NCBI RefSeq assembly: GCF_001696615.3
Contig: NZ_CP032279.1
Span: forward strand, 2,728,001-2,792,000
DNA: 64,000 nucleotides
From: Acinetobacter sp. WCHAc010034
Lineage (GTDB): Bacteria; Pseudomonadota; Gammaproteobacteria; Pseudomonadales; Moraxellaceae
Direction: 5' to 3'
Shown here: one piece after another, positions 16,826 through 51,036 of the stretch
Position numbering within the stretch: the first letter of the stretch is position 1
Layout of the letters: each line of letters begins with the position of its first letter
The notes under the pieces: generated by a model
Database searches by the model: none
What the model was told of the DNA's origin: nothing
What the model saw: only the letters and a program-made list of their open reading frames with translations
Translations under genes and position numbers: made by a program

Positions 16826-17184
16826 GGGGGTGTTTCTGGCTTCGACGCTGGTGATGAAACTCATAGATGCATGCCGAGAGCGCATTTTCTCTCGTAAATC
16901 AAATTTGCATTTTATAGTCGCAAACGACGAAACTTACGCTCTAGCTGCCTAAGGGCAGCTTGTCCGCCTCTCCGAATACTTGTGGTTAGAGAGTCCGACT
17001 GAAGCGCACGCACACAAGTCCGTATAAAGCCAAGCCTCGGGGCTTTGTACTAAACTTAGAGGATCGCGATTTGCGCCCTGTTCGTCGGGCCGCAAAGAGT
17101 TAAAATAGTAGACGATATCTAAGCATGTAGTATTCTCGAGCGTAGTGCTGGCGGACGCGGGTTCAACTCCCGCCACCTCCACCA
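16826..17184 (+). ncRNA. ssrA: tmRNA (ssrA)
   Basis: This is the transfer-messenger RNA that rescues stalled ribosomes. The 5' end GGGGGUG pairs with CACCUCC before the encoded ACCA at the 3' end, giving a full 7-bp acceptor stem with one G-U. The T-arm region reads GGGTTCAACTCCC. The tag frame at 16920-16952 codes ANDETYALAA followed by TAA, the Acinetobacter-type tag. Length is 359 nt. The gene is intact even though its 3' end is the integration site of the adjacent element; the element supplies the sequence beyond the CCA. Confidence 0.97.
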
Positions 17185-17254: not shown

Positions 17255-17366
17255 TGGCTGTATTGTCCGATGCTGTCCTAAGCGATTTGACCCTATTTTT
17301 GCTTTGTGTGGGTAAAAATTGGCAAAATTTACCCAGAAATTAACACAACAAATTCTGGTTAAAGAT

Positions 17367-27830: not shown

Positions 27831-27858
27831 AGCCGCATCTGCAGATGCGGCTTTTTTA
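27831..27858 (+). promoter_or_regulatory. Terminator-like hairpin between the DUF932 and YqaJ genes
   Basis: A perfect 22-base palindrome, agccgcatctg/cagatgcggct (27831-27852), is followed by TTTTT. It lies 64 bases after the DUF932 stop and 32 bases before the YqaJ start, so it is both a 3' end for one gene and a 5' leader hairpin for the next. Confidence 0.8.
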
Positions 27859-27890
27859 TGCCCGAAATTGAACAGAATAGGAAAATAAAC

Positions 27891-28925: not shown

Positions 28926-28952
28926 CCTAAGCAGAACATTTAACAATGACCG

Positions 28953-28986
28953 AAAAATCCCATGCCTGAGCGCATGGGATTTTTTA
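28953..28986 (+). promoter_or_regulatory. Terminator-like hairpin between YqaJ and the Cys-rich gene
   Basis: aaaaatcccatgc (28953-28965) pairs with gcatgggattttt around ctgagc; the T-run follows. The next gene starts 58 bases later. The sequence after it (TTTTTTATGCCC) matches that after the 27831 hairpin. Confidence 0.78.
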
Positions 28987-29043
28987 TGCCCAATTCATTT
29001 TTACTCAACACAGCAGCGCATTTAAAGCATAGAGGAAAACACC

Positions 29044-29973
29044 ATGATTAAAGGTTTAGTAATCACACCGCCTATTTTAGGACGCATCAGTATTGGCAAG
29101 GTTGTTGAAAAGAACGGCAAGCGTCTGCCTGAAAAGGATGACCAGTTTACCATTACCAGCCAAATCCAAAGCAAAGACGGTTGGATCAAGCATCCATTGG
29201 ATGAACGGCTGCGTGCCAGAGCACAGAACCAGAAACTCCGAAGCATTCCAGTCCGTATGATCTTCAATGATCCTGAGCTGAATCTGAGGGCGGAATACAA
29301 CCTGTTTGACCGGCAAACTGGTCGGCCTGTTTGTATCGGCAATGGAGAAACCTGCCAGCGATTGACCAATCAAGGTATAGAGCAGCATCCATGTCCATCA
29401 CCTGACCTTTGCCCATTGGCACAAGGTGGCAACTGCAGACCCTATGGACGTTTGCATGTCAATTTAGATGAGTCGGATGAACTGGGTACATTTATTTTCA
29501 GAACCACAGGCTTTAACAGCATACGAACGTTGACCGCACGGCTGAACTATTACCATGCCGCATCGAATGGCTTGCTGTCATGTCTACCGTTACAACTCAC
29601 CCTTCGAGGTAAATCCACCACACAAAGCTATCGTAAGCCCGTGTATTACGTGGATCTAACTTTAAGGGATGGTGTCAACCTTCAACAAGCCATTCAAACA
29701 GCGAAAGAGATTGATCAACAAAGTAAAGCTTCAGGCTTTAATCAACATGCTTTAGATCAGATGGCACGGCAAGGTTATGGTAATGCGAGGTTTGAGATGA
29801 ATTCAGAAGAAGGATTGGACTTGGTAGAGGAGTTGTATACGGATGAGGCTGTTGAGTCTGAGCAAATACAGCCTGAGTCGAAAACCAAGGTAAAGCCTAA
29901 GCTGCATCAGGCAGATAGCTTTGTACAGAATCTTCAGCAAGGCTTACAGCAGAATGTATGGGCTGTGAATTAG
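29044..29973 (+). CDS. Cys-rich, probably metal-binding protein (recombination-directionality-factor-like family)
   Basis: A 309-residue protein of a plasmid/ICE family often labelled 'hydrolase or metal-binding protein'. Five cysteines cluster at about residues 97-130 (RPVCIGNGETC, HPCPSPDLCPLAQGGNC) and could bind zinc or an iron-sulfur centre. The flanking sequence, NLFDRQTGRPVC and the later FIFRTTGFNSIRTLTARLNYY, recalls gp3-like recombination directionality factors; I am unsure of this. The C-terminus is acidic and disordered. It forms a module with the DUF932 and YqaJ genes. ATG preceded by AGAGGAAAACACC. Confidence 0.72.
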   Translation: MIKGLVITPPILGRISIGKVVEKNGKRLPEKDDQFTITSQIQSKDGWIKHPLDERLRARAQNQKLRSIPVRMIFNDPELNLRAEYNLFDRQTGRPVCIGNGETCQRLTNQGIEQHPCPSPDLCPLAQGGNCRPYGRLHVNLDESDELGTFIFRTTGFNSIRTLTARLNYYHAASNGLLSCLPLQLTLRGKSTTQSYRKPVYYVDLTLRDGVNLQQAIQTAKEIDQQSKASGFNQHALDQMARQGYGNARFEMNSEEGLDLVEELYTDEAVESEQIQPESKTKVKPKLHQADSFVQNLQQGLQQNVWAVN

Positions 29974-33493: not shown

Positions 33494-34773
33494 TGATGGC
33501 TCAAAGTAATTTAACTTTTACAGAAAAGCATGATGTTCCTGAAGGTTATAAAAAAACTGAAGTTGGCGTAATTCCTAATGATTGGAATGTAGAGAGTCTT
33601 CAAAATTTATGCCGTAGTTCTATCACATACGGCATAGTTCAATGTGGACCACATATTCCAAATGGTGTTCCATATATCCGTGTATCTGATATGAATTCAT
33701 CGGAACTCAATGTAGATGAAATGCTAAGAACCTCTCCAGAAATAGCTTCATCATTTGGTAGGTCTAAAGTTGAAGAAGGAGATATTGTCTATGCTTTACG
33801 AGGAAAATTAGGTGAAGTAAAAATGGTTGGCACTGCGGTCTCAGGTGCGAACCTCACACAGGGTACAGCTAGGATTGCCCCGAAAAATAATATAGACAAT
33901 CGTTATTTATTATGGACTTTACGTAGCCCTCAGGCTTTAAAGCAAGCTGTAAAAGAAGCTAAAGGAAGTACATTTGTAGAAATTACTTTAGGTAATTTAA
34001 AAGGCATTGGTGTGCCATTACCTTCTTCAAGAGAAGAACAAGAAAAAATCGCCACAGCTTTATCCGATACCGATGCTTTAATTTCTGAATTTGAAAAACT
34101 CATTGAGAAAAAACAAGCCATTAAAACTGCAACCATGCAACAGCTTTTAACAGGTAAAACTCGTTTGCCTGAATTTGCTTTGCGTGAAGATGGCACGCCT
34201 AAAGGTTATAAAGGGAGTGAGCTAGGGCAGATTCCTGAGGATTGGGAAGTTGATAAAATTAGAAATACTTTATCGATAACAACAGGTAGCCGAAATACAC
34301 AAGATAAAGTAAATGATGGGGCTTATCCATTCTTTGTAAGATCACAAAATGTTGAACGAATTAATACATATTCCTTTGATGGTGAAGGTGTTCTAACTGC
34401 TGGTGATGGCGTGGGTACGGGTAAAATTTTCCATTATATAAATGGTAAATGTGACATTCATCAACGTGTATATCTTATGTCTGACTTTAAGCAAACTTTA
34501 GATGGATATTACTTTTATATATTTTTTAGTAATTATTTCTACGACCGTATTATGTCTATGACAGCAAAATCGTCGGTTGATTCAGTTAGACGAGAGATGA
34601 TCGCAGACATGCTAATTTTTTTACCATCGATCAATGAGCAAAAGAAAATTGCTTCTGTGATAAAAAATTTATTTGAAGAAATTGAAGTATTAAATATCAA
34701 GTTGAATAAATTGTTAAAAATTAAACAAGGCATGATGCAAGAACTTTTAACGGGTAAAACTCGTTTAGTTTAA
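33493..34773 (+). CDS. hsdS: HsdS, type I specificity subunit
   Basis: A 426-residue subunit with two target-recognition domains, each followed by a conserved helix. The internal repeat is clear. GYKKTEVGVIPNDWNV near the start is matched by GYKGSELGQIPEDWEV at about residue 235. LLTGKTRLP at about residue 218 is matched by LLTGKTRLV at the very end. Each half-site of the bipartite DNA target is read by one domain; the target cannot be predicted. ATG at 33493 overlaps the hsdM TAA, with GGAG upstream, so translation is coupled. Confidence 0.94.
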   Translation: MMAQSNLTFTEKHDVPEGYKKTEVGVIPNDWNVESLQNLCRSSITYGIVQCGPHIPNGVPYIRVSDMNSSELNVDEMLRTSPEIASSFGRSKVEEGDIVYALRGKLGEVKMVGTAVSGANLTQGTARIAPKNNIDNRYLLWTLRSPQALKQAVKEAKGSTFVEITLGNLKGIGVPLPSSREEQEKIATALSDTDALISEFEKLIEKKQAIKTATMQQLLTGKTRLPEFALREDGTPKGYKGSELGQIPEDWEVDKIRNTLSITTGSRNTQDKVNDGAYPFFVRSQNVERINTYSFDGEGVLTAGDGVGTGKIFHYINGKCDIHQRVYLMSDFKQTLDGYYFYIFFSNYFYDRIMSMTAKSSVDSVRREMIADMLIFLPSINEQKKIASVIKNLFEEIEVLNIKLNKLLKIKQGMMQELLTGKTRLV

Positions 34774-34801
34774 GTACGGTTAAAAATATTTGGGGGTAAA
34801 T

Positions 34802-36652
34802 ATGAAAATTGATGCACAAGTAAAATCGATTGAAAAATTAAAGGACTATTTTTTTCTCGTACCTGACTATCAACGTGAATACGTATGGAAAGCCGATGAT
34901 CAGGTCGAGCAGTTTTTAACAGATATCGATAATGAATACGATGAAAATGCTGAGCGACAAGAAAGCTACTTTATTGGTTCAATTATCATTGTTAAAAACA
35001 AGAATAAATACGATGTGATAGATGGTCAGCAACGTCTGACCACAATTACACTCACCTTGTGCGCAATTCGAGATTTACTCTCAAATCAAGAATTAACCGA
35101 ACTGCAAAAGAACCACTTAAGTACAGTCAATAACTTACTGTATAGCTTTGACTTGGACACTGAAAAGCATTTACTTCGTCTTGAACTGCAATATGAAGAA
35201 AGCAAGAATTTTCTAGATACGCTGATCCTGAAAGAAAAATATGAAGGTGAAAATACCGCATCCATTCAAAAAATGCGTGCTGCATATCATCAAATTTATA
35301 ATTATCTTGAAAATATTTTGCAAAAAGGTGTGCCTGCCTTAACTAAATTTGCACGCTATTTCATGAGTAAAATTGATTTGGTGCTCATTGAATCTGAAGA
35401 TATTGGTAGCGCACTTAAAATTTTTGAAACCATCAACCAGCGTGGTGCAAGTTTAAATGCCATGGATTTGGTCAAAAACCTGCTGTTTAGACAAGCCAAT
35501 GAAAGTCAATTTAGTACCATTAAGGAAACATGGAAAAAAATTAATGAGGCTTTACTGCGCTGTGGAGAAGATGAAAATCCACTACGTTTCTTACGTTACT
35601 TCATGATGGCACGTTATCACAACGGTATTTTACGTGAAGATGATATCTACAATTGGATTATCACAAAATCAGGTAAAGCTATTCTGAAGTACGAGACTCA
35701 CCCCATTGAGTTGGTCAAAGAAATTGAGTTTATGGCGCAACGCTATGCGGATTTAGTCAATGCAACCAAACGATTGAGTGATGGCAGTGACTACCCACAT
35801 GTGACTCATATTGGCTTTATTAACAAATATAAAGCGCGACAACATTTGATTATGCTATTGGCATTGTCTAAACAGGCGGATAAAGCAGCAATTGATTATT
35901 TGGCTCAGCAAATTGAAAGTTTCTACTTTGTCACCAATACAGTGGGGATCTTAGGTAAAAGTAATGAACACTCATTTGCCAATTGGGTGGTCTCATTCCG
36001 TGGCAAAACAACGATAGAAGAGATTCAACAGGCTGTTGAAAAAACGATTGTGCCGTATGTATTAGAACGCTTAGATACGTTGAAATTTAAATTCTTAAAT
36101 ATCCGTCACGATGGCTATAACCCACAATATCGTCAGCGTTTTATTTTAGGCCAGTTAGAAAATCAGGCACGTACTCAAGCCGGTCTAACGGAGTTTAATT
36201 TTAAACAAATTGGCCAATTAGAAATTGAGCACATTTTCCCACAAACACCAAAAGACGATGTGTTACCAGAAGAGTTTTTGGATAAAGCGGAATACAACAA
36301 TACCATCTATAAGTTAGGTAACGTCACTTTACTCGAAAGTGTCATTAACCAAGCGATTAATAAGATGAATGATCTCACAATCAATTGGTTTGAACAGAAG
36401 CAACAAGAGTATAAAAAATCGATTTTGCTGACGGTGAATCTGCTTGATCACCAATATAACATTGGTAAAAACACAGCAATTAATAGATTCAAAGAAGATA
36501 AAAACTATATTTTTGAAAATTGGTCAAAACAAGCTATTACGGATCGTCAACAAATCATGTTGGATCTTGCGCTAGATGCGTGGCGTTTCAATGATCAGCG
36601 ACTCGATCAATATCAATTTTCAATTGAACACAAAGACACAGTGAACGCATAA
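34802..36652 (+). CDS. GmrSD-like DUF262/DUF1524 protein inside the type I operon
   Basis: A 616-residue protein with two recognisable domains. The N-terminal DUF262 (ParB-like) domain has PDYQREYVW and DVIDGQQRLTT (about residues 72-82). The C-terminal DUF1524 His-Me-finger domain has EIEHIFPQTPKDDVLPEEF (about residue 475) followed by YKLGNVTLLESVINQAINKMND. Proteins of this build include the type IV enzyme GmrSD, which cuts modified phage DNA, and the nuclease BrxU. It lies between hsdS and hsdR on the same strand, 28 and 24 bases from its neighbours. It is likely a second restriction activity in one operon. ATG at 34802 follows GGGGGT. Confidence 0.88.
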   Translation: MKIDAQVKSIEKLKDYFFLVPDYQREYVWKADDQVEQFLTDIDNEYDENAERQESYFIGSIIIVKNKNKYDVIDGQQRLTTITLTLCAIRDLLSNQELTELQKNHLSTVNNLLYSFDLDTEKHLLRLELQYEESKNFLDTLILKEKYEGENTASIQKMRAAYHQIYNYLENILQKGVPALTKFARYFMSKIDLVLIESEDIGSALKIFETINQRGASLNAMDLVKNLLFRQANESQFSTIKETWKKINEALLRCGEDENPLRFLRYFMMARYHNGILREDDIYNWIITKSGKAILKYETHPIELVKEIEFMAQRYADLVNATKRLSDGSDYPHVTHIGFINKYKARQHLIMLLALSKQADKAAIDYLAQQIESFYFVTNTVGILGKSNEHSFANWVVSFRGKTTIEEIQQAVEKTIVPYVLERLDTLKFKFLNIRHDGYNPQYRQRFILGQLENQARTQAGLTEFNFKQIGQLEIEHIFPQTPKDDVLPEEFLDKAEYNNTIYKLGNVTLLESVINQAINKMNDLTINWFEQKQQEYKKSILLTVNLLDHQYNIGKNTAINRFKEDKNYIFENWSKQAITDRQQIMLDLALDAWRFNDQRLDQYQFSIEHKDTVNA

Positions 36653-36676
36653 GTATTAAAGATTAGGGTAAGGGTA

Positions 36677-39600
36677 ATGAGTGAAGTCGGACAGCGTGAA
36701 CGTGTCACACAAGACCGTGTCGTTCAATTATTTAAAAATGATTTGGATTATCGTTATTTAGGAAACTTACATGACCTAAATAATAAAAATATTCGTGAGC
36801 AAGATTTAAAAGCATGGCTGAAAAAACGTGGTATCAGTGATGTGCTTATTCAAAAAGCATTTCGCCAATTAGATATAGCCTCAGCATTGGGTGAAGGTAG
36901 AAAGCTCTACTATGCTAATAAAGATGTTTATGAATTATTGCGCTACGGTGTTAAAGACAAAGAAGGGCAAGGTGAGCAGAAACAGACGGTATGGTTGATT
37001 GATTGGCAAAACCCAGAAGAAAATGATTTTGCCGTAGCAGAAGAAGTGTCTGTACAGGGCGAATATAAAAAACGTCCCGATGTCGTGTTATACGTTAATG
37101 GCATTGCTTTAGGTGTGATTGAGCTTAAACGCTCTACAGTAGGGTTAACCGAGGGCATTCGACAAAACTTAGATAACCAGAAAAAAGACTTCATTCGTGA
37201 TTTCTTCACGACGATGCAGTTGGTGATGGCGGGCAATGACACGCAAGGTTTACGTTACGGCACGATCGAGACGACAGAGAAGTACTATCTTGAGTGGAAA
37301 GAAGAACTAGAAAATCCTTATTCAAATAAGCTCGATTTTCATCTGAGTCGCATCTGCAATAAAGAACGCTTTTTACAGCTGATTCATGATTTTATTGTCT
37401 ACGATGCAGGCATTAAGAAGACCTGTCGTCATAATCAGTTCTTCGGTATTGAAGCAGCAAAACAAAGAATTGCAACAAGAGAAGGCGGTATCATCTGGCA
37501 TACACAAGGCTCTGGTAAAAGCTTAACCATGGTCTGGTTAGCCAAATGGATTCGAGAGAATGTACCTGATAGCCGTGTATTAATTATTACTGACCGTACT
37601 GAACTTGATGAACAGATTGAAAAAGTTTTTGGTGGGGTGGAGGAAGCGATTTATCGTACACGTAGTGGTGCTGATCTGATCCATACTTTAAACACAACCA
37701 ATCCTTGGTTGATTTGTTCTTTAGTACATAAGTTTGGTCGCCAGGTTGACGATGAAGAGGATGATGAAGCATCTTCAGCAGATTTCATCGAAGAAATGAA
37801 AAAAGCCGTACCACATGATTTTAAAGCTAAAGGCGATTTATTTGTGTTCGTGGATGAATGTCATAGAACGCAATCAGGCAAACTGCATGAGGCCATGAAA
37901 GTGATTTTACCGGAAGCCATGTTTATTGGCTTTACAGGTACGCCACTGATGAAAAAGGATAAGAAAAAATCCATTGAGGTATTTGGCTCTTATATTCATA
38001 CCTATAAATTTAATGAAGCGGTTGAAGATGGTGTGGTGCTCGATATTCGTTATGAAGCACGTGATATTGACCAACGTATTACATCACAGAAGAAAGTTGA
38101 TGAATGGTTTGAAGCCAAGACCAGACAATTATCCCCTTTAGGCAAAACCTTACTTAAACAGAAGTGGGGGACGATGCAGAAGGTGCTTTCAAGCCGTTCG
38201 AGACAGGAGCAGATTGTTGCTGATATTTTGATGGATATGGATACTCGTCCTAGGCTTATGGATGGACGAGGAAATGCCATGCTTGTCTGTTCAAGTGTTT
38301 ATCAAGCATGTACTGCCTATAAACTATTTAATGACACAGACTTAAAAGGTAAAGTCGCAATTGTGACCAGCTACCAACCTACAGCTGCGAGTATTAAAGG
38401 CGAAGAATCAGGGGCTGGACTAACAGAAAAACTAGCCAAGTATGATATTTATCGCCAAATGTTGGCAGACTACTTTGAAAAGCCAGCAGATCAAGTGGGG
38501 AATTTAGTTGAAGAGTTCGAAAAACAGGTAAAGAAAAAATTCATTGAAGAACCTGGTCAAATGCGTCTGCTCATTGTAGTTGATAAATTACTCACAGGGT
38601 TTGATGCACCGTCAGCAACATATCTATATATTGATAAATCGATGGCAGATCACAACTTATTCCAAGCGATCTGTCGTGTGAATCGTCTGGATTCTGATGA
38701 TAAAGAGTATGGTTATATCATTGACTATAAAGACCTTTTTAAATCCATTGATAAGACCATTAAAGATTATACGTCTGAAGCCTTAGATGGATATGACAAA
38801 GAAGATGTAGATGGATTACTGAAAGATCGTATTCAGTCTGCACGTTTAGATTTGGATACGGCTCTCGAAGTAGTCAAAGCATTATGTGAACCTGTGCCTG
38901 CACCTCGGTTGAGTCAAGACTATCAACATTATTTCTGCGGTAAATCTGGATTGAATTCTGAAGAAATAAAGGAAAAAGAGTCGTTGCGCTTAGCTTTATA
39001 TAAGGCGGTGAATAAACTATTGCGCAGCTATGCTAGCATTGCCAATGAGTTACCAGAAGCGGGATATACATCACAGGAAATTACCGATCTAGAAGCGGAT
39101 GTAAAGTTCTTTGAAAATGTAAGCAAAGAAATAAAAGCACATAGCGGTGATGCTGTTGACATGAAGGTCTATGAGCCTGCGATGCGTCAGTTACTGGATA
39201 TGTATATTCAGGCAGAAAGTAGCGAAGAAGTCATTAAGTTTGAAGAGTTTGGGTTAATTGATCTAATTCTAAGAAGCGATGATGATTTTAAAGGTGTACC
39301 TGAAAACATCAGAAGAAATCCTGAATCAATGGCTGAGGCAATTGAAAATAACGTCCGTAAAAAGATCGTAGAAGAGAATCCTGTAAATCCAATTTACTAC
39401 GACCAAATGTCTGTTTTACTTAATGAAATTATAGAGCTCAGACGTAAAAATGCGATTGCTTATAAAGAGTATCTTGAGAAAATACGTGATCTCACACGAA
39501 AAGTGGCTCAGCCAGCTGGACGGAATGATTATCCTGAGGGAATCAACACTCCAGGTAAACAAGCATTATTTGATAACTTTGGCAAAGATATCGAATTAAC

Positions 39601-39769
39601 GCAAAAGATTGATAAAGCTATCCAATCTAACAAATTGGCTGCATGGGTGGGTGATGATGCAAAAGAGAAAATTTTGCTCAGAGGTCTAAGCCAAGAATTG
39701 GGTATTAAGGATAAAAATGTTCTAATAGCCTATTTAACGCTTGCGCAAAAGCATCAGGAATATCATTGA
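36677..39769 (+). CDS. hsdR: HsdR, type I restriction endonuclease/translocase
   Basis: A 1030-residue motor-nuclease subunit. The N-terminal PD-(D/E)XK domain has RPDVVLYVNG and LGVIELKRS (about residues 144-152, Glu-x-Lys). Superfamily 2 helicase motifs follow: Walker A TQGSGKSLTMVW (about 275-286), DECH in FVFVDECHRTQSG (about 390), FTGTPL, and the motif VI region QAICRVNR. It translocates DNA with ATP and cuts at a distance from unmethylated sites. The C-terminal helical part contacts HsdM/HsdS. It overlaps the next gene by 4 bases. Confidence 0.96.
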   Translation: MSEVGQRERVTQDRVVQLFKNDLDYRYLGNLHDLNNKNIREQDLKAWLKKRGISDVLIQKAFRQLDIASALGEGRKLYYANKDVYELLRYGVKDKEGQGEQKQTVWLIDWQNPEENDFAVAEEVSVQGEYKKRPDVVLYVNGIALGVIELKRSTVGLTEGIRQNLDNQKKDFIRDFFTTMQLVMAGNDTQGLRYGTIETTEKYYLEWKEELENPYSNKLDFHLSRICNKERFLQLIHDFIVYDAGIKKTCRHNQFFGIEAAKQRIATREGGIIWHTQGSGKSLTMVWLAKWIRENVPDSRVLIITDRTELDEQIEKVFGGVEEAIYRTRSGADLIHTLNTTNPWLICSLVHKFGRQVDDEEDDEASSADFIEEMKKAVPHDFKAKGDLFVFVDECHRTQSGKLHEAMKVILPEAMFIGFTGTPLMKKDKKKSIEVFGSYIHTYKFNEAVEDGVVLDIRYEARDIDQRITSQKKVDEWFEAKTRQLSPLGKTLLKQKWGTMQKVLSSRSRQEQIVADILMDMDTRPRLMDGRGNAMLVCSSVYQACTAYKLFNDTDLKGKVAIVTSYQPTAASIKGEESGAGLTEKLAKYDIYRQMLADYFEKPADQVGNLVEEFEKQVKKKFIEEPGQMRLLIVVDKLLTGFDAPSATYLYIDKSMADHNLFQAICRVNRLDSDDKEYGYIIDYKDLFKSIDKTIKDYTSEALDGYDKEDVDGLLKDRIQSARLDLDTALEVVKALCEPVPAPRLSQDYQHYFCGKSGLNSEEIKEKESLRLALYKAVNKLLRSYASIANELPEAGYTSQEITDLEADVKFFENVSKEIKAHSGDAVDMKVYEPAMRQLLDMYIQAESSEEVIKFEEFGLIDLILRSDDDFKGVPENIRRNPESMAEAIENNVRKKIVEENPVNPIYYDQMSVLLNEIIELRRKNAIAYKEYLEKIRDLTRKVAQPAGRNDYPEGINTPGKQALFDNFGKDIELTQKIDKAIQSNKLAAWVGDDAKEKILLRGLSQELGIKDKNVLIAYLTLAQKHQEYH

Positions 39770-41115: not shown

Positions 41116-43803
41116 TCACTCTTTAACTTCAATGTTTCCTAACATTAAATAATTCTCATGATGAGATGGTGAGTGTAGTGCCAGTAATTTTGTATCATTT
41201 AATGAAAATTTTTCCCAACTACCATCTTTTAAAATCATTTCATGGAATTCATTTATATTTGTAGAGAAATATAAACTATTAGAAGATGTAAAAATATTAA
41301 AATTTGATAGTTTAAATATTTGATCCACCGAAAAATTCATATCTTTTTTATGCCATTCAAAACCATTTTGTGATGTAAAGGATTCACAATAACCTGTTTG
41401 GCAATAATAGAAGTTATTTACTTCTTCAAAAAAAGAATTACTTTGAATAGTATCAATTTTCCAAGAGCATGTTCGCCATTTTTGGTTGTCGCTAAAGTAA
41501 AGGGCTTGTGGCTTTGCATCTACTTTCTTCTTATTAGATTTATAACTCCAACAATATTCAGCTAAGAATATAGGTAGATTAGCTTCAGGTAATATAAATA
41601 GATTCTGTATTTCTAAACCTTCATCTAAATGTGGAGAACATTCCCACTCTGTCCAACCTCCATCCAAAGTTGATGAGCACATGATAATAGATTTATTATA
41701 ATCCGATTTTTTTACAGAGTCAGAAAAGAAGCCTTTTTCTGTATAATTATACTCAGTTTTTTTGGTAAATCTCCATAACCATATATCTTTAAATTTAGTT
41801 AAGTTTTCTGTAGGATAAATCCCGTTAAAATAATCAATCCCATTGGGAATGTTTGATTTTTTCCAATTAATACCATCAGATGAATAGATGAATCCTTTTT
41901 CTTCGTAATTATTTTGAAAGATAATAAGCAAGTTATCAATAACTTTAATTTCCTTAATGTATGAAAAATCGTCTAGACATTCAATAGCTACAGAATTCCA
42001 TTTTTTTAAATCTTGGCTTATGTAAATTTTATTTTCATTGTTTGTAATTAACCAATTGTTGTTAAATGACTTAATAATGGAAATGTCTTCTGGGTGGCAT
42101 GGAGGGTTCTCTAGCTTTTGCCAGTCGATTATAATGCTTTCACCATTACTTAATGATATGGATTCTTTATTTTTTCTTTCTATCTCTTTTTGTTTTTCTT
42201 CTTCTAACTTAGCTTGTCTTTTTATTTGGACAATTGATTTTTTATATTCATTATTTTTAAAAAGTTCTAACTGCTGTACAGTATATTCACAAGCTTGCAA
42301 AAATGAATTAAGCGTATTTTCTATATTATCATTGATATAAGTAAATTGATTATGCCAATTTTCATTGGTAGCTGATGTATCTAGATCGATATCAGAATAA
42401 TCAATACTATCCTTAAATTCAATTTTTTCAAGTTTATACCTTTCTATAATTTGATTCGCTTCAAATAAATTATTTCTATGATTTGAAATAAATTCGCGAA
42501 CTTCTTTTTTATAATTATTTAGATCAGATGTACATGATGATCTTCCAAAAGAGGTTGCTGATCCGCTAACAGAGGAACGAACCTTACTAAAAAAACCTGT
42601 ATCAAAATCTGAGTCATCGTAGTAATAAGCGTAATCATTTGATTTCATTACTATGTTAAAATTTTTAAGCAGTAATGTTGTACTACCTACTGATGTGGAA
42701 TTCAGCTTGCTAATAAGTTCGTCAAAGCTATTATTTAGTTCTATCTCACTAATTTCAGCTGAGTCATATTGATCATTAGGTTGTTCAACTTCTTCATCTA
42801 AGAAACCATTTATTTCTTTGTATATATTTACAGCAAATACGCTATTATCAACAAGCTCTTCAATAATTTGCCTAAATGTGTATGAGGAGTCCAAAAAGTT
42901 AAATTCTTTTCCAAAAAATTTAGAAACTATTTTTTCAAATTTTTCATCTGAATCACAAATATTTTCGTCTGAAACCAGATCATAAATTTTATTGTATTCA
43001 CCTGACAGGAAATATAAAGCATTAAAGAATTGACTAGAAATATTTTCATCAATAAATTTATTATCAATATGGTATTCATCGTAAGATAGATTTATTAAAT
43101 TTTGGTAACTATCTAGCTTGATAACATCGATATCATTTATTAATTCTACAATAAAGTCAATAAAGCGTAGTTCTTCGTCACAATTTACCTTCATTTCTTC
43201 TAATAAAACGATAATATGATTGATATCTTTACGACTAAAATCAAATCCTCTATTGTTTTTAACAAAATCATATATTAGGTATAAAACTAATATAGTCTTT
43301 GGATGAGACTTAAATTTTCTTTTATTAGCTTTAATATTTAAAGACCATTCACTTAAGCCTAATCGAATCTCAATATTCTCGATTTTATTAACTGCTTGTT
43401 CTAAGAAATCTCTAGTTTCATAAAGTAGTTCATTTGTCGTACTAAGATTATTTCTAATAGTAGCAATACTCTGAGCTTTTATTAGATTTTGTTCTTGTAG
43501 CTCTTTTAAGTAATGCCATGCAAAATGCTGTATTATTATTAAGTCTGAGCTATTTTGGTTAATTACTTCCTGATTTTTACCAGTAAAAGAATACCAACAA
43601 CGTTTAAAAAAGCCTGTGTCTTTTATTTTATCTAGACGATCTTTTGACGTAGTTAGTAATTTAGAAGCATCAAGAGCTAGTTGTTGTGAAAAAGCTTTTT
43701 TCGTTTTTGATCTCTCTATCAGAGAACTTAATCTTGAATTTTCTTCGTCACTAAGAGGTTGATGGAAGATCTGGTCAACGGTACTGTGGTCTAAAACTGT
43801 CAT
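41116..43803 (-). CDS. Unrecognised 895-residue protein with C-terminal Asp-box (propeller-like) repeats
   Basis: Third gene of a minus-strand operon. Residues 1-550 are largely helical, with FFKRCWYSFTGKNQE and a long coiled-coil-like stretch (LKELQEQNLIKAQSIATIRN) early on and acidic Ser/Asp-rich segments in the middle. From about 580 the character changes to beta. Asp-box-like motifs recur every 40-60 residues: SQDLKKW (about 598), SSDGINW (about 648), TLDGGWTEW (about 713), FSDNQKW (about 771), SQNGFEW (about 814) and FSTNINEF (about 849). That spacing fits a beta-propeller. No signal peptide, so cytoplasmic. ATG has TTAGGAATCCATC upstream; 9 bases from the preceding gene. Function unknown; I infer a sensor or target-binding role. 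Confidence 0.7.
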   Translation of the reverse strand: MTVLDHSTVDQIFHQPLSDEENSRLSSLIERSKTKKAFSQQLALDASKLLTTSKDRLDKIKDTGFFKRCWYSFTGKNQEVINQNSSDLIIIQHFAWHYLKELQEQNLIKAQSIATIRNNLSTTNELLYETRDFLEQAVNKIENIEIRLGLSEWSLNIKANKRKFKSHPKTILVLYLIYDFVKNNRGFDFSRKDINHIIVLLEEMKVNCDEELRFIDFIVELINDIDVIKLDSYQNLINLSYDEYHIDNKFIDENISSQFFNALYFLSGEYNKIYDLVSDENICDSDEKFEKIVSKFFGKEFNFLDSSYTFRQIIEELVDNSVFAVNIYKEINGFLDEEVEQPNDQYDSAEISEIELNNSFDELISKLNSTSVGSTTLLLKNFNIVMKSNDYAYYYDDSDFDTGFFSKVRSSVSGSATSFGRSSCTSDLNNYKKEVREFISNHRNNLFEANQIIERYKLEKIEFKDSIDYSDIDLDTSATNENWHNQFTYINDNIENTLNSFLQACEYTVQQLELFKNNEYKKSIVQIKRQAKLEEEKQKEIERKNKESISLSNGESIIIDWQKLENPPCHPEDISIIKSFNNNWLITNNENKIYISQDLKKWNSVAIECLDDFSYIKEIKVIDNLLIIFQNNYEEKGFIYSSDGINWKKSNIPNGIDYFNGIYPTENLTKFKDIWLWRFTKKTEYNYTEKGFFSDSVKKSDYNKSIIMCSSTLDGGWTEWECSPHLDEGLEIQNLFILPEANLPIFLAEYCWSYKSNKKKVDAKPQALYFSDNQKWRTCSWKIDTIQSNSFFEEVNNFYYCQTGYCESFTSQNGFEWHKKDMNFSVDQIFKLSNFNIFTSSNSLYFSTNINEFHEMILKDGSWEKFSLNDTKLLALHSPSHHENYLMLGNIEVKE

Positions 43804-43812
43804 GATGGATTC

Positions 43813-45234
43813 CTAAAATTTTCCTAACTTTGCTTTTAATCTTGAACTTTGTTTTTTCATTTCATGAACTTGGGTGTTAAAATGTCTTTCTGACAAAAAC
43901 AATCCTTTTTGGAAATCTGCATAAACGTCTTGTGATATTGATAAATACATTAAAGAATCATTCATTACATTTTCAAGAGAAACTAGATTTTGAGTTTGTG
44001 CTAGAGTTTCTTTAAAAGGCTTTTCTATACCATTATCTATAGCGATTGTTGTTGCGATAGAAGTAATCATCCCGCCTAAAATACTTCCAATAATCATTCC
44101 AGGTGGGCCGCCAATAATTCCAATACTTGTACCTATTGCAGATCCGACCACGCCAGAGCCAGTTTGAAAAATATTTTTTCCTGTGCGTTCTTCTAACTCT
44201 TTTCCTGACATTTTTCCTAAAGCGAACATTACAGTGCATTGAACTAAGTCCACCGCACAAACCGCTGCTCCCCCCACACTACCTGCGGCTAAACTTTGCT
44301 GAAATACTGTACCTGTAAATAAATTTGGTAAATATTGTGCTGCCGTGCCTACACTTGCTGTAGCTATACCAGCCTTTAAAGCGCTGTCTCCAGCTGCAAT
44401 AACAGTATTTTTTAGAATAGCTTGTACTGCTTCTTCACTAGATATTTGACCATTTTGCGCTTTCTGAATATATTCAATACAATTAATTGTTCCTGCTATA
44501 ACTGTTGTAATAACAGCCGCATTTTTTGCTGCTTTTATACTTTGTTGAACAGTAGATTTATTTAGATACCCCTGTTGCATCTCTTTATGCATTTCTTGAC
44601 CAGTTTTACCACCTCGTCCAAGATGCTCAGCCTCTTTTTTACTTAGTGCTGTAGACTCTACGCCATCTATTGTCAATTTATCTGCCGATTTATTTTTAAC
44701 GTGTGTTGCTCCTTCTACAACAGTTGGACGATGCTGTTGGGTATCAATGTCTCTTTGAGCATTTCTTTTAATATCATTGAGTTGATCTGAAGGGCCTAAA
44801 AAAATATCATTTTCTTCATATTTAAAACTTTGTGTTTCTACATTACGCTCACGAAAAGCATTAGCTGTTTTTTCAGGCGTACCACAATATTTTGATTGAG
44901 CAGTTAATACACGCTTATCTCCATCCATAATAACTATATCGTGGATAGGATCATTTTTTCTTAAGTTGTGGTTACCTTGAAAGTTATCTGTAAATGCACG
45001 TACATTTTTACTTTTAAGAATAGCATCTAAATTAAAAGATTCAGCATGCCATGTTTCTGCTGCAAATCCTGCTTTTACCGCTATATGTTGTTGTGTTGAT
45101 GATACTTTATTGATCAAATTATTTGCTTGATTAATCTGTTCTATCATTTCCCCAACTTTATTTGCTGCTTCCATAGACCAAATAGGGCACACATCTATAG
45201 ACCTTTTTAAAGTATCTTTACGATTTCGTTCCAT
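43813..45234 (-). CDS. Nuclease-like protein with a glycine-zipper hydrophobic domain
   Basis: A 473-residue protein I do not recognise as a named family. The N-terminal domain has conserved-looking acidic and basic residues arranged like a PD-(D/E)XK fold: Glu60 and Glu65 in AAETWHAESF, Asp99 in NDPIHDIVIM, and Gln113-x-Lys115 in TAQSKYC. The C-terminal half is hydrophobic, with a helix near 240-257 and a Gly-rich run at about 355-395 (VVGSAIGTSIGIIGGPPGMI, then IIGSILGGM). This is typical of glycine zippers that insert into or perturb membranes. AGGAG lies before the ATG. It is flanked at 9 bases by the WYL regulator and the 895-residue gene. I infer a defence or toxin effector. Confidence 0.68.
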   Translation of the reverse strand: MERNRKDTLKRSIDVCPIWSMEAANKVGEMIEQINQANNLINKVSSTQQHIAVKAGFAAETWHAESFNLDAILKSKNVRAFTDNFQGNHNLRKNDPIHDIVIMDGDKRVLTAQSKYCGTPEKTANAFRERNVETQSFKYEENDIFLGPSDQLNDIKRNAQRDIDTQQHRPTVVEGATHVKNKSADKLTIDGVESTALSKKEAEHLGRGGKTGQEMHKEMQQGYLNKSTVQQSIKAAKNAAVITTVIAGTINCIEYIQKAQNGQISSEEAVQAILKNTVIAAGDSALKAGIATASVGTAAQYLPNLFTGTVFQQSLAAGSVGGAAVCAVDLVQCTVMFALGKMSGKELEERTGKNIFQTGSGVVGSAIGTSIGIIGGPPGMIIGSILGGMITSIATTIAIDNGIEKPFKETLAQTQNLVSLENVMNDSLMYLSISQDVYADFQKGLFLSERHFNTQVHEMKKQSSRLKAKLGKF

Positions 45235-45243
45235 AATTTTCTC

Positions 45244-46140
45244 CTAACTTCCCCAATATTCTTTCAATTCTTTTTCCAACTCACCTTGTAGATATCCAGG
45301 ATCAGTAATTTTTACATGTGGGATCCAATATCTAACTAAAGGTAAAAGCTGCATGGTATGGCTAATTCTGCTTGATACTAGCAAACTGCCATCTTTTAAC
45401 TCTTCAATAATTTCTTGTTCTGGAAAAAGTAAACGTTGTTTAAAATGCAAAGCAATTTCTGGAGAAACAATTAAAACTACTTTGGTCTTTTCTCTGCCAA
45501 ACCAAATACTATTTTCATTATTTAGCTGCTGTATGATTTGAGGATCAGGTATAAAACTTTGAAGTTCATGTTGTTGATAAGATATCGCCATTCGACTTAT
45601 CCGATATACACGGATTAATCCTTCTTTTACAGCTGCTAGATACCAACTTCCATGATGATGTATCAATCTATATGGTTCAACAATACGTATCTCATTGTTA
45701 TATAAAAATGCGACCTGTTGATTTTTTTCAATTGCAGTTGAAAACATTTCAAAAAATACTGTAAATAGTGTTGCATCTTCAGAGGAAGAACCTTTAGCAC
45801 TATATATAGAACTGGCACGACTATCTAAAATTTCACGTAGAAATGAGATATCTAAACTTGGGTAAAGTTGAGCAATTCCGGAAAGTTGAGCAAAATTTTT
45901 AATATCTTGTGGTTTTAATTGCCCCAAATAATGACGTTCTAAATAGAATTTTTTAGTTTGACTATTCTGTTGCAAAGGTAAACAGCTTGATAAACGTTCA
46001 ATATCCCGATCCAATGTACGTTTACTAACACCAAATTCACCAGCCAGACTTTTTAGGTCCAAATGTATCCCATTGTTTAACATTACAATAATCTTTGTTA
46101 AGCGTTCGGCCAATTGTGACGCTACAGAGCTTTTTGCCAT
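45244..46140 (-). CDS. WYL-domain transcriptional regulator
   Basis: A 298-residue regulator. The N-terminal winged helix (LKSLAGEFGVSKRTLDRDIERL) is followed by the WYL domain with IVEPYRLIHHHGSWYLAAV (Trp-Tyr-Leu at about residues 163-165). A WCX-like C-terminal extension (HFKQRLLFPEQEIIEEL) completes it. WYL proteins often repress phage-defence operons and respond to nucleic acid or nucleotide signals. It is the first gene of the operon and probably self-regulated. ATG chosen at 46140 with AGG upstream; a TTG two codons earlier is less likely. Confidence 0.88.
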   Translation of the reverse strand: MAKSSVASQLAERLTKIIVMLNNGIHLDLKSLAGEFGVSKRTLDRDIERLSSCLPLQQNSQTKKFYLERHYLGQLKPQDIKNFAQLSGIAQLYPSLDISFLREILDSRASSIYSAKGSSSEDATLFTVFFEMFSTAIEKNQQVAFLYNNEIRIVEPYRLIHHHGSWYLAAVKEGLIRVYRISRMAISYQQHELQSFIPDPQIIQQLNNENSIWFGREKTKVVLIVSPEIALHFKQRLLFPEQEIIEELKDGSLLVSSRISHTMQLLPLVRYWIPHVKITDPGYLQGELEKELKEYWGS

Positions 46141-46597
46141 TACCAACCTAATTTTTAGTTATAGACTATGATCTTTTATTCTCAATAGTACTTTGACAGG
46201 GTATGTCATTTTGAGAAAAACTTTATTACTGTAACAAAACAATATTACTATTGAAATATAAGAAAATTATATTTTTTTGTTTAAAAATATGATGATTAAA
46301 GATTAATTCAAGACTATTGGTTCTTAAATGCCAATTTAAAAACATGTCATAGATTATCGATTTAAATAAAGTGAAGTCTCTCTTACATCCAAAATACTAA
46401 AAATTAAATGCAAGCAGAGTTCCCTTTTCTTCGTAAAATAGAGTTCTAATTTGACTTGGCCTACCTTAATATTAGAGTTAAGTTTGTTTTTAAAATCTAG
46501 CTAAGATTTCAAATACTAATCTGTGTAATGGACCCCAAAATTACAATAAAAGTAATTACGAAAGAAAATGATAAATTAAAGTATGAGAGTCACTAGC
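46141..46597. other. AT-rich intergenic region upstream of the WYL operon
   Basis: About 450 bases without a supported gene. It must contain the promoter and probably the operator of the WYL-led operon (near 46145-46260), and the 3' end of the minus-strand fic gene lies beyond. I see no clear hairpin or palindrome to name. Confidence 0.5.
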
Positions 46598-47329
46598 TCA
46601 TATGCCTAGAACCACTTGATAAGGTTTAAACCCTTCTATAACAGCATCAGCAACTAATTTGAGAAAACCTTCTGTCTTCCTGTAAGCCATCCATTGATCT
46701 AGAGCTTCATAATAAGCTAAGCGATTTTCAACCTTAATCACACAAGGTGGATAGCCCGCTTTTAATAGTTCTAGATTCATCAAAAGTCGTGATGTACGTC
46801 CATTCCCATCAATAAAAGGATGTATGCTTATGAAGTCTGCATGTACTTTGGCTGCACGTTCAATTGGATGCAGCTTATGTGCTTCACTATTATACCAGTC
46901 TACGAATTGAGCCATCTTGTCATTTAATAATGTGTAATCAGGCGGGGTAGACGTAGCACCCGAGATCAATACATTTTGCTGGCGATAGCGTCCTGTATTG
47001 TCATCATCGATGTTTTTTAGAATGGGCTGATGGATATTACGAATTTGCCATTCAGAAAAAGGCTCCTCTTTCCGAATGATATCTTCAACATAGTAAATTG
47101 CATTTCTATGGTTGATCGCTTCGAAGTGTTCACTTAATGCCTTTCCACCAACAGTAATACCTTCCAGTACTACTTTTGTTTCTAGCAGGGTGAGTGTATT
47201 ACCTTCAATTGCATTCGAATGATACGTCCAACGCAGAATAAGATCTTCTTGTAAATTTTTGACAATTGATGGAGAGAGAGGGCGATGTTGATCTAATTTT
47301 TTCTTTAAATCATCAATAGTTTCAAACAT
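46598..47329 (-). CDS. Fic-domain protein with N-terminal inhibitory helix
   Basis: A 243-residue Fic (AMP-transferase fold) protein. The catalytic motif HPFIDGNGRTSR lies at about residues 170-181. The autoinhibition motif (S/T)xxxE(G/N) is present as SNAIEGN at about residues 38-44, before the Fic fold. Such proteins transfer AMP from ATP to Tyr, Ser or Thr of a target, and the inhibitory Glu keeps them quiet. Target unknown. No separate antitoxin gene is needed for this class. Single gene on the minus strand. Confidence 0.92.
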   Translation of the reverse strand: MFETIDDLKKKLDQHRPLSPSIVKNLQEDLILRWTYHSNAIEGNTLTLLETKVVLEGITVGGKALSEHFEAINHRNAIYYVEDIIRKEEPFSEWQIRNIHQPILKNIDDDNTGRYRQQNVLISGATSTPPDYTLLNDKMAQFVDWYNSEAHKLHPIERAAKVHADFISIHPFIDGNGRTSRLLMNLELLKAGYPPCVIKVENRLAYYEALDQWMAYRKTEGFLKLVADAVIEGFKPYQVVLGI

Positions 47330-48368: not shown

Positions 48369-49367
48369 ATGAAATATCAACCGCCTTATACGATCACCTC
48401 TAAAATTATTCACTTGATTGCACAAATTAGTGAATCAATAGGGCGTTTGACTGCATTAACCCAAATCCAAGATAGCCTTAAATTGCGAAAAGCCAATCGT
48501 ATTCGAACGATTCAAGGGTCTTTAGCAATTGAAGGGAATACCTTGAGTACAGAGCAAATCACAGCGATCCTGAATGGCAAGACCATTATCGCTCCACCTA
48601 AAGAAGTTCAAGAGGTACGTAATGCCCTAAAGGCATATGAAGAAATTCAAGATTGGAATCCTGATCAAGAATCTCATTTGCTGAAAGCACATCAAATATT
48701 GATGACAGGACTGATTGATGAGGTTGGACAGTACCGCCATGGTGGGGTTGGTGTGATGTCAGGGGATCGAGTCGTGCATATGGCTCCGCCTGCAAATCAA
48801 GTCCACCGTTTAATGGGAGAGTTATTGCAGTGGTTGGATGAAGGCAATGAGCACCCATTAATTCAGAGTTCAGTATTTCATTATGAGTTTGAGTTTATAC
48901 ACCCATTTGCTGATGGCAATGGGCGTATGGGGCGTTTATGGCAAACTTTAATCTTAAGCCAGTGGAATCCAATTTTTCTCAATATCCCTGTAGAAAGCTT
49001 GATTTATCAAAACCAAAAAGCTTATTACGATGCATTGCAAGCGAGCACAGATCGTTCAGATTCTGCACCTTTTATTGAGTTTATTTTGCAGATGATTCTA
49101 GATGCAATTCTCAGTTCCGATGCCAGCGATCAAGATACCGCTCAAGCTAGCGTACAAGTTAGCGATCAAGTTAAACGTCTCATCCAGAATATGGAGCAGA
49201 AGGAATATAGTTTAACTGAGCTGATGGCTCTTTTAGACTTGTCCCACCGAGCAACATTCCAAAAAAATTATTTAACTCCAGCATTAGAAGCAGGTGTGGT
49301 TGAACGCACCCTTCCTGATAAACCTAAGAGTCCTAAGCAAAAATACAAATTAAAAATTGAGTCATAA
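48369..49367 (+). CDS. Fic-domain protein with C-terminal winged helix
   Basis: A 332-residue Fic protein. The catalytic motif is HPFADGNGRMGR (about residues 177-188) and the inhibitory motif SLAIEGN is at about residues 51-57. A DUF4172-like N-terminal helix bundle precedes them (ITSKIIHLIAQISESIGRL). The C-terminus adds a winged-helix region (LIQNMEQKEYSLTELMALLDLSHRATFQ), suggesting DNA-linked autoregulation. A short repeated S(D/V)(Q)-rich linker (ASVQVSDQV) joins the two. Divergent from the cupin gene. Confidence 0.92.
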   Translation: MKYQPPYTITSKIIHLIAQISESIGRLTALTQIQDSLKLRKANRIRTIQGSLAIEGNTLSTEQITAILNGKTIIAPPKEVQEVRNALKAYEEIQDWNPDQESHLLKAHQILMTGLIDEVGQYRHGGVGVMSGDRVVHMAPPANQVHRLMGELLQWLDEGNEHPLIQSSVFHYEFEFIHPFADGNGRMGRLWQTLILSQWNPIFLNIPVESLIYQNQKAYYDALQASTDRSDSAPFIEFILQMILDAILSSDASDQDTAQASVQVSDQVKRLIQNMEQKEYSLTELMALLDLSHRATFQKNYLTPALEAGVVERTLPDKPKSPKQKYKLKIES

Positions 49368-49705: not shown

Positions 49706-49806
49706 ATGCCTGAACATGACCAAACATAACTAGCCACAGTGTACATGCGCCGTGTACACTGCCATGTACATTGCACGTTTTATTGAACTGACGGGTGTAC
49801 ACGGTT

Positions 49807-51036
49807 ATGAAAAGAGCAGATATCAAACGAAGACCATTGGCCGACACTGTGTTAGCCACGTTAGAACCCGAATTAAAAGAATACCGGGAGCTGGACGGTG
49901 ATGGCCTATATTTCCGTGTGAAGCCTGATGGGAAGAAGGCATGGCTATTCAGATATAAAAAAGCGGATGGAAAATGGTCATGGTTAGGTATTGGCACCTA
50001 TCCTGAATTGTCAGGCAAAGGTGCCAGAAAAAAAGCATCCGAGATAATTAAAGATATTTCACACGGCGATAATCCAATCATTACCAAGCAGGAACGCAAG
50101 CGGAAAGAGTTAGAGCAGAATAATGCCACCTTTGAGGTGTTGGCGCGTGAATGGCTGGATACTAAGGTCGATGCGTGGGTACAGGACACAATGACCCGAA
50201 ATAAGGGCGCACTAGAAAAGCATATATTCCCTGTTTTTGGTAAACGCCTGTACACCACGATTAAGCCGATTGAGTGGATGAATCATTTAAAGGGAATACA
50301 GCAGGAGCAGGGCATCTATGAACAGGTAAACCGCGTTCGCGCAATGTGCCGCGATATTTATGATTTTGCCAAGGTGACTGGGCGTATGGACTATAACCCG
50401 GTAGAAGGCATCCAAAAATACTTGCAGCAGGGTAAAAAAGAAAATATGGCTCATGTGAGTGAGCAGGAGCTGCCGGCATTATTAAGAGCAATTAATAATT
50501 ATCCCTCTTTTGATGTGCGCATGGGCCTGCAGCTTTTGGTTATGCTGTTTTGCCGGCCGACTGAATTAAGGGAAGCAAAATGGGATGAATTCGATTTAGA
50601 GCAAGGGCTATGGAATATTCCTGAATACCGCATGAAGAAGCGCCGTGAGCATGTTGTTCCTTTATCAACACAAGCAATTGCTATCTTAAAAGAATTGCAG
50701 ACTTACCAAACCAATTCAGAGTATTTATTTCCAAGCAGATCGGACAAGAACAAGCCGAAATCAGACACGGTTTTTATTATGGCCTTGCGCCGTATGGGAT
50801 ATGAGGGCAGACAGACGCCACACGGATTCCGACATATTGCCAGTACCTTGTTAAACAATCGTGGTTTTGATGAGCGTCATATTGAAGCAGCATTGGCCCA
50901 TGTAAAGGACGGCGTGGCAGGGGTGTATAACAAGGCCCAGTACCTGCAAGATAGGGCAAACATGATGCAATGGTATGCCAGCCATTTAGAGGAAATAGCG
51001 GATCAGAGCATTATTCAATTTAAAAAGGCGAAGTGA
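49807..51036 (+). CDS. Tyrosine integrase of element 2
   Basis: A 409-residue recombinase. The N-terminal DUF4102-like arm-binding domain has LDGDGLYFRVKPDGKKAWLFRY and WLGIGTYPELSGKGARKKA. A core-binding domain follows. The catalytic domain has Arg in FCRPTELREAKWDEF, HGFRHIASTLL and the Tyr in GVYNKAQYLQDR. ATG at 49807 (MKRADIKRR) is favoured over a GTG four codons earlier, but the upstream repeats blur the ribosome site. It is about 180 bases inside attachment site 2. The protein differs clearly from integrase 1 although both use ssrA. Confidence 0.92.
   Translation: MKRADIKRRPLADTVLATLEPELKEYRELDGDGLYFRVKPDGKKAWLFRYKKADGKWSWLGIGTYPELSGKGARKKASEIIKDISHGDNPIITKQERKRKELEQNNATFEVLAREWLDTKVDAWVQDTMTRNKGALEKHIFPVFGKRLYTTIKPIEWMNHLKGIQQEQGIYEQVNRVRAMCRDIYDFAKVTGRMDYNPVEGIQKYLQQGKKENMAHVSEQELPALLRAINNYPSFDVRMGLQLLVMLFCRPTELREAKWDEFDLEQGLWNIPEYRMKKRREHVVPLSTQAIAILKELQTYQTNSEYLFPSRSDKNKPKSDTVFIMALRRMGYEGRQTPHGFRHIASTLLNNRGFDERHIEAALAHVKDGVAGVYNKAQYLQDRANMMQWYASHLEEIADQSIIQFKKAK

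Follow-up and report, generated by a model that had tools for sequence, protein, structure and literature searches.

A candidate WYL-controlled anti-phage operon of Acinetobacter and its nuclease-like glycine-zipper protein

Within the 64,000-nucleotide (nt) stretch of DNA from Acinetobacter sp. WCHAc010034 that was analyzed here (NZ_CP032279.1, positions 2,728,001 to 2,792,000, forward strand; hereafter, the window), three minus-strand genes code, in order, for a WYL regulator of 298 residues, a protein of 473 residues (protein 2), and a protein of 895 residues (protein 3) (Table 1). The gaps between them are exactly 9 bases each (45235 to 45243 and 43804 to 43812), and purine-rich sites, AGGAGA and AGGA, precede genes 2 and 3. 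An earlier, sequence-only reading of the window had described this arrangement of closely spaced genes with ribosome sites, and we find it as described; an alternative start of the WYL open reading frame (ORF), TTG 46146, is possible. The same reading named the leader as a WYL regulator, which is borne out by Pfam matches above cutoffs to HTH_11 (3.1e-6), WYL (2.5e-11), and WCX (1.9e-8). For proteins 2 and 3, PADLOC 2.0.0 yields 0 families at E ≤ 1, and neither protein reaches the curated cutoff of a Pfam or NCBIfam family; sequence and profile searches of PDB returned nothing relevant. Weak matches to Pfam OTCace, to antibody heavy chains and adenosine receptor fusions in PDB, to NCBIfam pdsO (1e-4, well short of its cutoff), and to phrog_18476 (4.2e-7, residues 350 to 396) were dropped as chance or zipper-only similarity.

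Protein 2 belongs to a superfamily of three subfamilies: (a) WYL-linked proteins of about 471 residues, (b) proteins of about 523 residues, and (c) proteins of about 650 residues. Profile-profile comparison with hhalign aligned (a) with (b) at a pairwise E value of 2.8e-22 over 293 columns and (a) with (c) at 8.4e-22. Conservation was read from two alignments. Alignment A9 holds 81 sequences selected among the hits listed (47 of subfamily a, including the window's own, 27 of b, and 7 of c), and alignment A3 holds 88 sequences of subfamily (a), 47 of them shared with A9, for 122 distinct sequences in all. Twelve positions are invariant in A9 (81/81): G56, E60, H63, D99, Q113, K115, Y139, P148, S194, L197, G340, and G379. 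In A3, E60, Q113, K115, and the other recounted residues are kept in 88/88 and D99 in 87/88, so that the combined set has E60, H63, Q113, and K115 in 122/122 and D99 in 121/122. From the single sequence, a PD-(D/E)XK-like pattern had been proposed at E60 or E65, D99, Q113, and K115; the first and last three of these stand across the subfamilies, and E65 is fixed in the WYL-linked subfamily (88/88) and mostly replaced in the other two. The PD-(D/E)XK residue pattern E ... D ... (D/E/Q)xK is, in short, conserved in relatives, and the E-D-QxK set fits a PD-(D/E)XK site, which would make protein 2 nuclease-like.

The C-terminal part of protein 2 was earlier taken for a glycine-zipper hydrophobic domain, and the count of motifs agrees: the protein contains nine GxxxG motifs, of which six start at residues 364, 368, 372, 375, 379, and 383, and hydrophobic 19-residue windows start at 315 to 325, 371 to 373, and 379 to 382. 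Several zipper glycines besides G340 and G379 are at least 90% conserved across subfamilies. Protein 2 is probably membrane linked.

The gene neighborhoods of subfamily (b) connect protein 2 to a predicted defense system. In a gammaproteobacterium (L020), a VWA-like gene precedes the relative, and AAA, CARF-nuclease, phosphatase-like, and kinase-like genes follow it. Subfamily (b) was also matched in 15 plasmid records, and two of these neighborhoods were examined. The annotated order on an Enterobacter asburiae plasmid (L022) is VWA, hypothetical protein (the relative), AAA ATPase, DUF1887 CARF, VWA, PP2C, kinase, AAA-domain protein, two more genes, and DUF2357, and on a Klebsiella plasmid (L023) the same start runs as far as the AAA gene and then gives way to an IS3 transposase. 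The full order matches the second 5′ extension described for Type III-A CoCoNuTs (PMC11090510), and gene order of the CoCoNuT III-A kind surrounds subfamily (b) both in E. asburiae and in L020. Subfamily (b) would therefore be the CoCoNuT III-A zipper protein of that study, an identity drawn from gene order, and protein 2 is homologous to it over the nuclease-like part and the zipper. PMC11090510 describes the CoCoNuT protein as a PD-(D/E)xK-type fold with a bacteriocin-like glycine zipper. Because this superfamily is already on record there, protein 2 is not wholly unknown; the earlier reading, which knew of no named system with this composition, is supported by the absence of PADLOC matches for proteins 2 and 3. 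The triad itself is without description in the full-text literature found on glycine zippers with WYL or anti-phage functions, where PMC11090510 is the related work, and in the titles and abstracts of the DUF726 and BrxR literature.

The likeness has limits. Unlike Type III-A CoCoNuTs, the window operon lacks VWA, kinase, SpoVK-type AAA, CARF, and DUF2357 genes; its partner gene codes for protein 3, and its regulator is a WYL protein. The 523-residue CoCoNuT form has an extra N-terminal region that protein 2 of the window lacks. The Type III-A CoCoNuT core (McrB/McrC homologues, helicase, and HEPN) is not in the window operon, the remaining genome not having been searched. Subfamily (c) represents a third setting. 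In Polaromonas, it is followed by genes for a 408-residue protein, for a small one, and for an AAA_11/AAA_12 helicase-like product, and on an Acinetobacter soli plasmid (one of three records), where the relative is annotated as two pieces, its neighbors are annotated as N-6 methylase, HNH, and DUF262 genes.

Whether the nuclease-like site is active bears on what protein 2 does. E60, H63, D99, Q113, and K115 are kept in 27/27 aligned CoCoNuT-type sequences, a conservation that favors a site that works or is, at a minimum, under constraint. A somewhat unlikely alternative is a pore-type defense, in which the nuclease-like domain binds rather than cuts and the zipper opens or depolarizes the inner membrane after binding to phage or damaged nucleic acid. 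It would agree with the judgment of PMC11090510 that the CoCoNuT relative is an inactivated PD-(D/E)xK fold with a bacteriocin-like zipper, with the invariance of G340 and G379 and the conservation of the other zipper glycines, and with a LeoB-like operon that neighbors the triad behind a paralogous WYL gene in A. cumulans (described below). Complete retention of E60, D99, Q113, and K115 in the CoCoNuT-type sequences, however, would be unusual for a dead site.

Protein 3 is the partner of protein 2. Its best-conserved stretch falls within the N-terminal 340 residues, and this N-terminal body matches a 454-residue Vibrio plasmid protein (tblastn, 1e-7 with the window form and 8e-13 with the Cronobacter form). 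The Vibrio protein is shorter, is without the propeller-like part, and is partnered by a DUF726 protein, and the annotation of the stretch examined includes no WYL gene; in this pair, the same scaffold may carry a different effector. Protein 3 had been credited with about six Asp-box motifs at propeller spacing. That description was not upheld, since the strict Asp box S-x-D-x-G-x-[TS]-W occurs 0 times in protein 3. A loosened pattern chosen after seeing the sequence, [ST]x[DNE]xxx[WF], occurs 6 times in residues 557 to 895 against a shuffle mean of 1.25 (5/5,000 shuffles reach 6), at the irregular positions 596, 641, 665, 811, 840, and 847, and a tighter variant occurs twice (56/5,000 shuffles). 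A beta-propeller is plausible for this region. No 19-residue hydropathy window of protein 3 reaches 1.4, and a signal peptide was judged by hydropathy only. Among lower-ranked protein 3 clusters (P0140 to P0212), 70/73 are 1,041 to 1,093 residues long, with an insertion near window residue 345. One homologue, P0166 (1,487 residues), extends into a TPM domain (PF04536, 8e-36), perhaps a membrane link.

Homologues of both proteins are spread over several proteobacterial genera. At E ≤ 1e-3, at least 238 of 8,000 scored candidates are homologues of protein 2 (120 listed) and at least 92 of 7,999 are homologues of protein 3; source names include Acinetobacter, Pseudomonas, Cronobacter, Pantoea, Burkholderia, Laribacter, Variovorax, and Shewanella. 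Plasmids of Cronobacter malonaticus and C. dublinensis preserve the series WYL, protein 2, protein 3 (gaps of 12 and 9 bases), and in A. cumulans a Fic gene stands ahead of the same series. Proteins 2 and 3 also have neighboring locus tags in Laribacter (LH425_08890/08885), Burkholderia anthina (K6W76_21240/21235), B. vietnamiensis (WJ07_18055/18060), and a Burkholderiaceae metagenome-assembled genome (QM766_26300/26295). By eye, the longest contig of 20/92 protein 3 clusters equals in size that of one of the 120 listed protein 2 clusters. The triad thus co-occurs outside the genus, as the two Cronobacter plasmids demonstrate; on these plasmids, its setting is not a defense island.

Within Acinetobacter, the operon is accessory. 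A protein 2 profile matched 43 of 149 genomes (E ≤ 1e-3), 2 of them at full length (G000 and G480); the other 41 matches, which aligned over the zipper region only (residues 343 to 465), were dropped. The class sample gave 4 matches in 369 genomes (our own genome, alone at full length; a distant relative in G056; and two zipper-only matches), and the order sample gave 1/390 at E ≤ 1e-15, again our own, which is counted in the genus, class, and order samples alike. No match was found in 61 genomes of the family of G365, and E. coli genomes had no match to the Cronobacter gene; one locus was matched in a genome-contig collection.

Two genes tightly paired behind a regulator may also call to mind a self-poisoning addiction or interbacterial module, with protein 2 as the toxin, protein 3 as its inhibitor, and the WYL protein limiting expression, and the description of a relative's zipper as bacteriocin-like (PMC11090510) would suit such a toxin. 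We consider this very unlikely: an inhibitor of 895 to 1,093 residues would be unusually large, none of the three genes is secretion-like (no dedicated signal-peptide search was made), and neither role needs a nuclease-like domain plus a zipper.

The WYL protein of the window is 98% identical to the A. cumulans form and 28 to 30% identical to the two Cronobacter forms, and it matches PADLOC WYL models at 4.8e-24. At E ≤ 0.001, its only solved relative in a PDB sequence search was PafBC (3.1e-6), a DNA damage regulator, and no BrxR structure was among the matches. It shares the domain order winged helix-turn-helix, WYL, WCX with the BrxR-type regulators of BREX and other defense islands. BrxR is a WYL repressor of BREX that binds to half-sites 5 nt apart (PMC9122589, PMC9122601), and the same spacing separates the 5-bp arms of a palindrome that we predict as the operator of the window operon (the WYL box, starting 68 nt upstream of the WYL ATG). 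The arm sequences, TGACA and TGTCA, are absent from the main text of PMC9122589.

The box pattern TGACANNNCCTGTCA has 2 exact sites in the whole 3.84-Mb genome (reversed-pattern control, 0), the second lying upstream of another WYL homologue, beside folD, with an in-frame stop. It is also exact upstream of the two Cronobacter WYL genes and both A. cumulans WYL genes. A survey of 99 Acinetobacter genomes found 35 with a WYL homologue at E ≤ 1e-30 and 42 matches, from which 30 loci (L056 to L085, the window's own included) were analyzed. With at most one mismatch, TGACA-N5-TGTCA occurs within 700 bp upstream in 28/30 loci, 10 of them exact, compared with 0/30 in the last 700 nt of the WYL gene and 0/28 in the 700 nt downstream. 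In the same set of controls, tiles of the window score 0/91 because the single window box straddles a tile edge. Because 18/30 are the folD locus, these sites are not independent. In the 10 loci away from folD that have a gene behind the WYL gene (L070 and L083 left out), exact arms were found in 8 and none in 2 (L068 and L075). Such a palindrome before this WYL family suggests a predicted operator.

Across 60 Acinetobacter genomes, there are 51 exact box sites versus 8 for the reversed-pattern control. As a genome-wide marker of WYL genes, the box was rejected, with a WYL homologue in 3/30 site loci examined; by coordinates, at least 4 further of the 51 sites adjoin one. A. cumulans carries a third exact box (L001, 14737 to 14751) with no WYL gene behind it, inside what appears by eye to be a partial repeat of the stretch around 7430 to 7680.

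The folD locus (L026 and 18 of L056 to L085) consists of the box, a small ORF of about 71 residues, and the WYL regulator; the small ORF lies between box and WYL gene in 18/18, and no other gene precedes folD in the 6 printed. Such loci would agree with a nondefensive role, in which the triad is accessory cargo of a WYL-controlled DNA damage or envelope stress response and proteins 2 and 3 act on membrane or nucleoid, repairing or remodeling them. The relationship to PafBC points in the same direction, as do the transporter, TetR, LysR, and RND genes that surround both Cronobacter plasmid loci. Against such a role stand the patchy presence of the operon (2/149 in the genus), the type I restriction genes that adjoin it, the LeoB-like operon headed by a WYL paralogue, and the presence of protein 2 relatives inside CoCoNuT operons; in our view, it is unlikely.

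Ten WYL loci precede other genes, including protein 2 in the window. Behind other WYL genes, PADLOC matches were obtained to LeoBC (2.4e-77), IetA (4.5e-32), and, weakly, LeoA (8.4e-7), and 6 of 9 tested gene sets had no PADLOC match; a GKS/T P-loop was seen by eye in several genes. In A. cumulans, a WYL paralogue with the same predicted box, 54% identical to the window WYL protein, leads a LeoB-like gene (3.6e-177), in an operon that lies beyond the Fic gene adjoining the triad. LeoB is of the dynamin type, probably a membrane-acting kind. Leo-type operons (PADLOC LeoA, LeoB, and LeoBC) thus resemble the triad in regulator, box, and location in A. cumulans and, by eye, in a glycine-rich C-terminal stretch; they differ in having a GTPase-like effector and neither a nuclease-like domain nor a protein 3.

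The window places the operon in company that would suit defense. Defense genes had been reported near it, and the type I restriction cluster, with its methyltransferase (MTase), S, and R subunit genes, is indeed found there. The operon is AT rich, with a G+C content of 0.309 versus 0.476 for window positions 1 to 31000. A transfer-messenger RNA (tmRNA) gene next to a phage-type integrase gene marks a probable ssrA integration site, and the operon looks like cargo of an ssrA-integrated mobile island, of which this is the one end located. Tested neighbors of the operon are the Fic gene upstream and, on the other strand, DUF2002-like, YgjP-like, and type I restriction genes. The Fic gene is also upstream of the WYL gene in A. 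cumulans (L001, 8000 to 8746), though not in that place on the two Cronobacter plasmids.

Table 1. Features of the triad, its surroundings in the window, and two related loci (window positions unless a locus is named)
Feature	Position (strand)	Evidence or remark
WYL regulator, 298 residues (HTH, WYL, WCX)	45244-46140 (-)	Pfam HTH_11, WYL, WCX above cutoffs
Protein 2, 473 residues: nuclease-like N-terminal, middle, glycine-zipper hydrophobic C-terminal parts	43813-45234 (-)	Homologues; three subfamilies aligned
Protein 2 nuclease-like region, about residues 54-155: G56, E60, H63, D99, Q113-x-K115, Y139, P148	44770-45075 (-)	Conservation in A9 and A3
Protein 2 glycine zipper, about residues 355-400	44035-44172 (-)	GxxxG motifs and hydrophobic windows
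Protein 3, 895 residues, partner of protein 2	41116-43803 (-)	Homologues; co-occurrence
Protein 3 N-terminal region, about residues 1-340	42784-43803 (-)	Helical by appearance only; shared with Vibrio 454-residue protein
Protein 3 C-terminal region, about residues 557-895	41119-42135 (-)	Perhaps beta-propeller; degenerate Asp-box-like motifs
WYL box TGACATACCCTGTCA, predicted operator	46194-46208 (-)	5-bp arms, 5-bp spacer
Fic protein gene	46598-47329 (-)	Directly upstream of WYL gene; PADLOC PDC-S04 models, 4.3e-38
Second Fic protein (Fic and Fic-like_C domains)	48369-49367 (+)	Near second integrase
Second integrase	49795-51036	
Type I MTase, S, and R subunit genes	within 31040-39769	Opposite strand to operon
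620-residue protein inside type I restriction cluster	34790-36652 (+)	Best PADLOC match HEC-06, 3.3e-73; also Orf5 models
YqaJ-like recombinase and Gp3-like recombination directionality factor	27858-29973	Phage-type cargo
Phage-type integrase	17319-18506	Start beside tmRNA gene
tmRNA gene	16826-17184	Adjoins phage-type integrase
A. cumulans WYL paralogue, 180-residue P-loop protein, and 656-residue LeoB-like protein with GYF_2 domain	L001 3841-7283 (-)	Box upstream
Vibrio plasmid pair, DUF726 protein and 454-residue protein	L005 6211-8525	

Because cousins of protein 2 sit inside predicted defense systems, the operon may be an undescribed anti-phage cassette. From the observations above, we infer a sequence of steps that runs from repression through sensing, membrane insertion, and cutting to protection. 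The WYL protein would bind to the box and keep expression down; a nucleotide-type ligand arising in the course of infection or DNA damage would then lift the repression. Protein 3 would act as a cytoplasmic scaffold whose N-terminal body holds protein 2 and whose C-terminal part recognizes a phage or damage cue. The glycine zipper would insert protein 2 in, or dock it on, the inner membrane, where the PD-(D/E)XK-like site may cut nucleic acid near the membrane, such as incoming phage DNA, or protein 2 may damage the membrane, and infection would be stopped. Tentatively, we favor this stand-alone WYL-controlled anti-phage cassette as the reading of the operon, at a confidence that falls short of calling it probable. 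It is in keeping with the sharing of E60, H63, D99, Q113, and K115 by three genomic settings, with the restriction genes, the integrase next to the tmRNA gene, and the low G+C content, and with an accessory distribution in the genus.

A number of observations weigh against the anti-phage reading. The PD-(D/E)XK fold of protein 2 is a putative one, proposed from its residues, PMC11090510 judges the corresponding fold in CoCoNuTs to be inactivated, and one WYL-linked relative, P0082, has Y at position 99, the sole exception in 88. For protein 3, the sensor role is a guess, and the Asp-box-like motifs behind the putative propeller are degenerate. No relative was found in phages, and among viral contigs two stretches matched a pattern, none of them confirmed as a relative. 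The triads of both Cronobacter plasmids lie outside a defense island. As for the predicted operator, it is missing from 2/30 WYL loci and is also found apart from WYL genes.

Beyond the single operon, we raise as a possible, somewhat doubtful proposal that the triad is an as yet undescribed anti-phage system that stands alone, that protein 2 in it represents a catalytically intact, membrane-tethered PD-(D/E)XK-zipper nuclease gated by a large scaffold-propeller sensor, that this mobile effector module is used in at least three chassis, and that the WYL family is a docking platform. If this were true, the three chassis of the zipper nuclease would be CoCoNuT III-A, the helicase-linked setting, and the WYL cassette, and one Acinetobacter WYL family with a common operator would be a docking platform for interchangeable defense cassettes.

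The triad ties an unnamed gene pair of several proteobacterial genera to a CoCoNuT accessory protein that has been judged inactive, and the near-invariant E-D-QxK set over three subfamilies argues against assuming a dead site. The common WYL box suggests which Acinetobacter operons fall under one regulator family, and the genes behind each WYL gene might reveal further defense cassettes.

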